This document shows positions 19,017 to 21,033 of a DNA stretch of 28,530 nt, in pieces (within the stretch, counting starts at the first letter, position 1; every line of letters starts with the position of its first letter). Source of the stretch: a virus. Position numbers and translations under genes: made by a program. The notes under the pieces were generated by a model. It was not told where the DNA came from. It saw nothing but the letters and a program-made list of their open reading frames with translations, and ran no database searches. The DNA lies in IMG/VR virus record IMGVR_UViG_3300030090_000659, positions 1 through 28,530 of that record. One strand, 5' to 3'.

Positions 19017-19247
19017 TTAATTGTCGGTTGCTAGCACTTCTGATTCATCAGCGTCGATCACGTAGCATACGTCGGAATCTAGTTCCTCAAACCACTGCGA
19101 GTCGTGTTCGGTTAGGTTGTTGTTTTTAACCTTATCGATAGCCTCTTGCTCATTCCGTGCGAAGACAGTGTATCTTCTGACTCCAGACACGGGTTGATCT
19201 ACATCGAAGGCTATTGGTGGGTTGTATTGTTTCTTGTATTGTCTCAT
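19017..19247 (-). CDS. Hypothetical protein (76 aa)
   Basis: The start at 19247 (MRQYKKQYNPPIAFDV) is preferred, since it sits right after the ACTAAC leader. An upstream in-frame ATG at 19334 would read through the tRNA-like element. The protein has a compact pattern RRYTVFARNEQEAIDKVKNN followed by an acidic C-terminus DADESEVLATDN. No family is recognised. It is immediately downstream of the tRNA/tmRNA-like element. Confidence 0.6.
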   Translation of the reverse strand: MRQYKKQYNPPIAFDVDQPVSGVRRYTVFARNEQEAIDKVKNNNLTEHDSQWFEELDSDVCYVIDADESEVLATDN

Positions 19248-19271: not shown

Positions 19272-19338
19272 TGGTGGAGGTGGGAGGAGTCGAACCTCCG
19301 TCCTTGGACTGGATCCAAGTCGAAACCTTGGCACCCCC
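19272..19338 (-). ncRNA. Minimal tRNA/tmRNA-like element (67 nt)
   Basis: On the minus strand, a 7-base-pair acceptor stem (GGGGGTG with CACCTCC) contains a G3-U70 pair, then discriminator A and an encoded CCA. The T-arm is GGAGG-TTCGACT-CCTCC. Instead of a normal D-arm there is CCAA-GGTTTCGAC, the form of the tmRNA D-loop (GGnTTCGAC), and one short stem CTTGGA/TCCAAG. The internal part is only 32 nt, so there is no room for a full D-arm plus anticodon arm and variable loop, nor for a tag reading frame. A D-armless tRNA with anticodon CCA (7-nt loop ATCCAGT) is the other reading. It lies between a terminator and the ACTAAC leader of the 76-residue gene. Confidence 0.7.
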
Positions 19339-19347
19339 GTTCACCCA

Positions 19348-19375
19348 GAAAGCCCCACCCTTGTGAGGTGGAGCT
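19348..19375 (-). terminator. Minus-strand hairpin terminator before the tRNA-like element
   Basis: Arms 19351-19359 and 19367-19375 (AGCCCCACC and GGTGGAGCT) pair with one U-G wobble on the minus strand. The U tract is short (UUU), so termination may be partial, letting transcripts continue into the tRNA-like element. Confidence 0.65.
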
Positions 19376-20214: not shown

Positions 20215-20541
20215 TTGATTGGTGATCTGTATTTACACGGGCTGTCAACCGTCCCAGAATGGGGCTACATTACCAATCTGTGTCCCACTTACTACGTCAT
20301 CGAGGGTGCTTTTAGCATCCCACCTCTCCACTTCCAGAGAGGTCATCCGAGGTATCACCGTATCGAAGGTCGGTCTGTCGCATGTATCCGCAAGTCCCAG
20401 TGATATCTGTCGGGGCTTCTCAAGCGGTAGAGATGCGAGGTGCGATCTCCAAGGTCGGAGTCGGTAGCGTTTGGACTGTCAAAGAACGGGAACTGCGGCC
20501 ACATACTAGCACAGATTCCAAACATCACCAAGCTTTTTTTT
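20215..20541. other. Structured non-coding segment, possible RNA
   Basis: TTGGTGAT (20219-20226) is complementary to ATCACCAA (20524-20531), closing a segment of about 300 bases. On the plus strand this helix is followed by GC and eight T residues. Local hairpins inside include GGGTGC/GCATCC (near 20305-20321), CCTCTC/GAGAGG (near 20323-20342), GAGAT/ATCTC and CTCC/GGAG (near 20430-20460). Either strand could be the RNA: a plus-strand stand-alone RNA ending at the T tract, or the leader of the first minus-strand gene. No known RNA family is recognised. Confidence 0.4.
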
Positions 20542-21004: not shown

Positions 21005-21033
21005 ATTCTATGTAGCCGAAAAATACGTGTCAA
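21005..21033 (-). promoter_or_regulatory. Minus-strand half of a divergent promoter pair
   Basis: TTGACA (21033-21028) and TAGAAT (21010-21005) are separated by exactly 17 bases on the minus strand, a near-consensus sigma70 promoter. It faces the early minus-strand genes. Its -35 is one arm of the inverted repeat TGTCAAG (21028-21034) / CTTGACA (21043-21049). Confidence 0.7.

Follow-up and report, generated by a model that had tools for sequence, protein, structure and literature searches.

What can a viral RNA gene do if it keeps the tRNA-like domain (TLD) of transfer-messenger RNA (tmRNA) and lacks the reading frame with which tmRNA tags proteins? The question is raised by a 67-nt element on the minus strand (19338-19272) of the IMG/VR virus record IMGVR_UViG_3300030090_000659, whose 28,530 bases are referred to here as the window. 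The element, for which the names mini-tmRNA, TLD-only tmRNA and CDS-less tmRNA (that is, devoid of a coding sequence) are used, is a complete tmRNA TLD without the mRNA-like domain, and thus belongs to a kind that is already known. What was not found in the searchable literature is a large phage family of such molecules with an alanine identity pair that appears to be selected; the breadth of this family, together with that pair, is the point of interest.

A tmRNA reduced to its tRNA-like domain

Read in minus-strand order, the element is GGGGGUG CCAAGGUUUCGAC UUGGAU CCA GUCCAA GGAC GGAGG UUCGACU CCUCC CACCUCC A CCA, which can be divided into the following parts.

19272 to 19338, minus strand: complete mini-tmRNA (Rfam tmRNA model RF00023, 69.2 bits, E 3.5e-25; custom model R1, 52.3 bits)
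19332 to 19338, minus strand: 5' strand of the acceptor stem, GGGGGUG, with G3 at 19336 (sequence; pairs of the alignment)
19319 to 19331, minus strand: D-loop region of the tmRNA form, CCAAGGUUUCGAC (alignment to the tmRNA consensus)
19304 to 19318, minus strand: P2 arm, UUGGAU-CCA-GUCCAA, replacing an mRNA-like domain or an anticodon arm (two-sided changes in 5/5 counted pairs, 19 distinct relatives)
19300 to 19303, minus strand: GGAC linker, conserved in tmRNA (RF00023 alignment; invariant in the relatives' alignment A4, but fixed by the search patterns)
19283 to 19299, minus strand: T-arm, GGAGG-UUCGACU-CCUCC (RF00023; helix 100% paired in relatives)
19276 to 19282, minus strand: 3' strand of the acceptor stem, CACCUCC, with U70 at 19278 (G3-U70 in 74/75 aligned elements)
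19272 to 19275, minus strand: discriminator A (19275) and encoded CCA (19274-19272) (sequence)

The acceptor stem (GGGGGUG/CACCUCC) comprises seven pairs, including the alanine identity pair G3-U70; the D-loop (GGUUUCGAC) is of the tmRNA form, the P2 stem (UUGGAU/GUCCAA) has six pairs, one of them G-U, and the T-arm is perfect. The internal arm is only 15 nt long, leaving no space for an anticodon arm or a tag frame. The match to RF00023, whose cut-off is 47 bits, runs end to end (model positions 1-374), with 310 positions deleted that correspond to the mRNA-like domain with its tag frame and pseudoknots. The TLD features and the alanine identity (G3-U70 and discriminator A) of a tmRNA are therefore present, and the mRNA-like domain is missing. 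The initial annotation had described the same coordinates and anatomy, down to the discriminator, the CCA and the 6-bp internal stem, and its reading as a minimal tmRNA domain with an alanine identity pair and no reading frame is borne out by this alignment.

Other RNA types fit less well. When 301 bases around the element were searched, tmRNA scored highest within its clan, while mascRNA-menRNA (18.7 bits) and permuted two-piece tmRNA (RF04321, 14.8 bits, cut-off 47) stayed below their cut-offs; moreover, the halves stand in the ordinary, non-permuted order. The D-arm and the anticodon arm with a 7-nt loop that define tRNA (RF00005) are lacking, so that the comparison of tmRNA and tRNA covariance models proposed initially yields no clean fit to a normal tRNA. 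The tRNA-Glu(UUC) called by ARAGORN at 19272-19362 is forced, since it overruns the acceptor by 24 nt and takes in part of an upstream hairpin, whereas the tmRNA model fits from end to end.

Relatives, covariation and the alanine identity pair

Relatives were collected with the pattern TTCGAC-N(8-38)-GGACNNNGGTTCGANTCC, which fixes TTCGAC, GGAC and the T-loop and leaves the acceptor stem and P2 free. In the viral contigs of IMG/VR it retrieves at least 119 stretches, nearly all of them TLD-only tmRNAs, and the kind is present in at least about 115 contigs; two narrower patterns give 25 and 43 stretches, mainly of the short class to which the window element belongs. Four false positives with an incomplete acceptor (L012, L046, L064 and L113) were excluded, and L013 and L026 were omitted for imperfect acceptors. 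Among the matches listed, two size classes can be distinguished: short, window-like elements of 64-74 nt and longer ones of 78-85 nt, whose P2 arm contains an A-rich internal loop as well as a hairpin of three pairs. In members of the longer class (L018, L073, L006 and others) the A-rich loop is asymmetric, and the 3-bp hairpin has a short loop and frequently reads CCG/CGG; this feature may be a motif for contact with a protein or the ribosome.

Selection on the structure is supported by compensatory base changes, which had been set beforehand as a test of the element and were found. In 75 elements aligned to the model, 97.0% of the cells are paired, two-sided changes are seen at 17 of the 22 pairs, and covariation scores 0.712 (0.134 after shuffling), figures that lean towards the model. 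When 19 distinct short-class elements, the window's included, were aligned with MAFFT without regard to structure, 100% of the cells paired and the score was 0.431 against 0.155, with two-sided changes in all five P2 pairs; controls in which the pairing was slid collapse. Within the acceptor, pair 3-70 is G-U in 74/75 elements, whereas GC, CG, AU and UA all occur at pairs 4, 5 and 6. All 87 distinct elements among the matches listed whose 7-bp acceptor is complete have G3-U70, in a region that the pattern had left free. TTCGAC, GGAC and the T-loop were demanded by the pattern itself, so their conservation allows no comparable conclusion. As G3-U70 is nearly invariant while its neighbours vary freely, alanine charging appears, from the sequences, to be under selection.

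Regarding distribution, a model built from nine long-class members finds the element in seven relatives of the window phage, where it is located 3.5-4.3 kb upstream of the gene for the terminase; looking for it in related phages had been proposed in the initial annotation. It is likewise carried by isolated phages, namely the Streptomyces phages LuckySocke, BRock and Shaeky and the Stenotrophomonas phage Jojan60, none of which has a feature annotated as tmRNA. GiJojo, Alone3 and pSt2308 match by BLAST only, and S-SSM7, Rb1, DLP_6 and cr10_1 were rejected as carriers of the mini form (28-30 bits only, with weak 5' halves). The window's own 261-base region has no DNA similarity to isolated phages. 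This recurrence across IMG/VR contigs, relatives of the window phage and isolates led to the rejection of a chance origin. Bacterial and archaeal genomes totalling 257 Gb contain 114 matches to the pattern, of which only about eight are convincing mini-tmRNAs.

Some members of the family are found near tRNA genes. Of 86 distinct elements among the matches listed, 17 have a tRNA gene within 1 kb, on the same strand in 16 cases and within 7 nt in five; the four isolated phages show the same neighbourhood, and some members sit inside tRNA arrays, all of which fits a tRNA-like transcription and processing. The CCA is encoded in 30 of 93 distinct pattern matches among those listed, and many elements would therefore need the CCA-adding enzyme. 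Each of 19 larger records with the element contains exactly one tmRNA match over the cut-off, always the mini form and never a full-length tmRNA, and SmpB is encoded in 0/23 records in a search that was positive for 10/10 control bacterial genomes.

Some individual records deserve mention. A mini-tmRNA is also present on QCKN01000003.1 (L248), a contig of 130,604 bases that is recorded under a Prochlorococcus single-cell genome and is probably an infecting cyanophage; the IMG/VR virus record L120 has the same length. L054 has elements at 5-84 and 1317-1395, of which one, near the contig end, is weaker (45.6 bits), mini-tmRNA-like and possibly a duplicated or decaying copy. ARAGORN inflates mini-tmRNAs to 'tmRNA' genes with implausible tags such as AWDYNPMWVQCSA (L008:2976-3318, L078:5905-6228 and L317:1485-2110), which makes the automatic annotation of this family in phages unreliable.

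Possible roles in ribosome rescue

The closest known example is the tmRNA of mycobacteriophage DS6A, listed by Hudson et al. 2014 as 'TLD only' (PMC4131195). A DS6A-like TLD-only molecule is reported to inhibit tmRNA strongly in Escherichia coli whether chargeable or not, perhaps through titration of SmpB (PMC4131195, citing Mao et al. 2009), and a 2025 tmRNA database paper repeats both the form and its inhibition (PMC11915505). By its published description, the DS6A gene is, like the window element, a tmRNA TLD and little else; in contrast to the at least about 115 IMG/VR contigs reported here, those papers refer to a single phage. DS6A was also the only phage said to carry a TLD-reduced tmRNA within the searchable literature, which mostly lacks subscription journals. 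CDS-less tmRNAs have also been described in jakobid and oomycete mitochondria, where they persist alongside SmpB, and as forms of about 65 bp in the plastids of Mallomonadaceae, two plastids keeping such tmRNAs (PMC11915505). They share with the mini-tmRNA the lack of a tag reading frame and, in the plastid forms, approximately its size, although they derive from the organelle's own ssrA gene, whereas the window element is phage-borne and SmpB was not found in the phage. Phages Wildcat, Bxz1, Bacillus phage G and Melnitz have full-length or two-piece tmRNAs, which have the TLD in common with the window element but keep the mRNA-like part. Finally, phage tRNA genes share the acceptor and T-arm, and some family members stand in their arrays, but the mini-tmRNA has the tmRNA D-loop and GGAC instead of a D-arm and an anticodon arm.

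In normal trans-translation, alanyl-tmRNA enters the stalled ribosome with SmpB and EF-Tu, receives the nascent chain and afterwards provides a resume codon (PMC8012679). The mini-tmRNA has everything needed up to chain transfer and nothing that is needed after it, and should therefore compete with the host tmRNA. The explanation to which we give somewhat better than even chances is that it works, once alanylated, as a decoy for host SmpB and stalled ribosomes. The element would be transcribed early, together with the genes of the leftward unit, processed in the manner of a tRNA and charged with alanine by the host alanyl-tRNA synthetase through G3-U70. Host SmpB and EF-Tu would then bind it in competition with host tmRNA, so that SmpB would be sequestered, the A site of stalled ribosomes occupied, or both; the nascent chain may be moved onto the alanine with no resume codon supplied. 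The alanine would be either used on the ribosome or needed only to help the decoy complex form. As a result, trans-translation and tagging would be inhibited or diverted while the phage infects the cell. A trans-translation decoy was already among the initial proposals, and it matches what is reported for DS6A.

Several considerations weigh against this explanation. That the element is expressed, processed and charged, that it binds SmpB and that it ends in inhibition are all steps that we infer. Inhibition independent of charging, as reported for the DS6A-like molecule, leaves the strict retention of G3-U70 unexplained, and this retention is the one fact for which simple titration of SmpB does not account. 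Four related records have no mini-tmRNA, which is thus dispensable. The failure to detect SmpB or a full tmRNA is weak evidence, since most contigs are fragments. Lastly, the minimum-energy fold of the isolated RNA swaps P2 for a CCAAG/CUUGG stem (-27.9 vs -22.8 kcal/mol). As a native fold this stem was rejected: it is 73.7% paired in relatives, with covariation not above controls, where P2 is 100% paired.

The nearly exceptionless G3-U70 would be superfluous in a pure SmpB sponge. It would be expected, too, if the alanylated molecule, together with host SmpB, accepted the nascent chain and the complex then fell apart or was released by other factors, freeing ribosomes without tagging phage proteins or switching template. 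The persistence of CDS-less organellar tmRNAs, in mitochondria together with SmpB, speaks for such a tagless rescue, and the inhibition reported in E. coli speaks against it; we regard it as unlikely, though to be taken seriously. To our knowledge, no release step exists for a TLD without a resume codon, which also counts against it. The element is flanked by a terminator-like hairpin on one side and, on the other, by the short leader of an open reading frame (ORF) of 76 amino acids, and in most relatives of the window group, too, a small ORF follows shortly downstream. This arrangement would suit an RNA-processing element that recruits RNase P and 3' processing enzymes, giving the downstream small gene a defined 5' end split from the upstream hairpin. 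Neither RNase P nor tRNase Z requires G3-U70, however, and processing needs no tmRNA D-loop, yet both are kept, and other members occur in tRNA arrays or different contexts; a processing role, also raised initially, is in consequence weakened to an improbable one.

Selection for charging could also reflect a general sink for alanine or EF-Tu, or a decoy for host defences that cleave tRNA or tmRNA, rather than one for SmpB and the ribosome. A frequent suggestion is that phage tRNA arrays, which hold some mini-tmRNAs, counter host defences directed at tRNA. For such a role an ordinary tRNA-Ala would suffice, and retaining the tmRNA D-loop, GGAC and P2 rather than an anticodon arm would be pointless; this reading seems quite improbable. 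Still less credible, and contradicted by the covariation, is the remaining proposal of the initial annotation, an attachment-site remnant, or likewise an ssrA pseudogene, that integration or an imprecise excision would have left behind. It is true that ssrA is a common integration site and that ssrA fragments occur in prophages (PMC9004378). What would be expected is the 3' part only, beside an integrase; instead, both halves are intact and joined by a covarying P2 arm, the short form recurs across many unrelated phages, and no integrase is found among the window proteins scanned. The initial interpretation is thus supported in part: the minimal tmRNA domain is confirmed and the decoy idea agrees with the reports on DS6A, the attachment-site remnant is rejected, and the processing-only role is weakened. 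It did not mention that the kind is known from DS6A and from organelles, or that it is widespread.

Trans-translation is nearly universal in bacteria. A widespread family that includes culturable Streptomyces and Stenotrophomonas phages, where it is apparently unannotated, suggests that phages commonly interfere with ribosome rescue. It is conceivable, and we hold this tentatively at slightly under even chances, that TLD-only tmRNAs form a large, unrecognised class of phage RNAs acting on host ribosome rescue which, unlike a mere SmpB sponge, need the alanine at their 3' end, being alanyl decoys or tagless rescuers accepted by stalled ribosomes, with trans-translation as a common phage target.

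Genomic setting in the window

The phage genes of the window include those for a terminase, a DnaB-like helicase, Erf, endonuclease VII and an exonuclease. The mini-tmRNA lies in a leftward unit, 2.5 kb upstream of the terminase gene, with the following features around it.

19351 to 19375, minus strand: terminator-like hairpin AGCUCCACC-UCACAA-GGGUGGGGCU just upstream of the mini-tmRNA, with a poor T tail (sequence; not called by the terminator scan)
19017 to 19247, minus strand: small ORF of 76 amino acids, whose start codon lies 24 nt past the CCA (sequence; without family match)
21005 to 21033, minus strand: candidate promoter TTGACA-17-TAGAAT, sigma-70-like, of the leftward unit holding the mini-tmRNA (consensus match only, 11/12)

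Hairpins similar to the first of these are called as terminators in neighbouring spacers (19960-19935 and 18795-18776). The promoter consensus scan gave totals not above those of shuffled sequences, and the three small ORFs around the mini-tmRNA have no PHROGs or Pfam match. Two spacers on the minus strand, 19960-19881 and 18805-18725, share a module consisting of a terminator hairpin (AGCTCCAGCCC..GGGGCT TTTTGGGTG), a GTAAGC..GCTTAC hairpin and an A/C-rich leader; in its own spacer, the mini-tmRNA stands where these two have the GTAAGC hairpin. Just upstream of small ORFs in the same leftward unit, at 20280-20482 on the minus strand, there is a RAGATH-24 RNA (RF03049; 54.1 bits, E 3.3e-9), which no paper in the searchable literature names and which is also present in the relative L126 (4636-4744, 80.2 bits).
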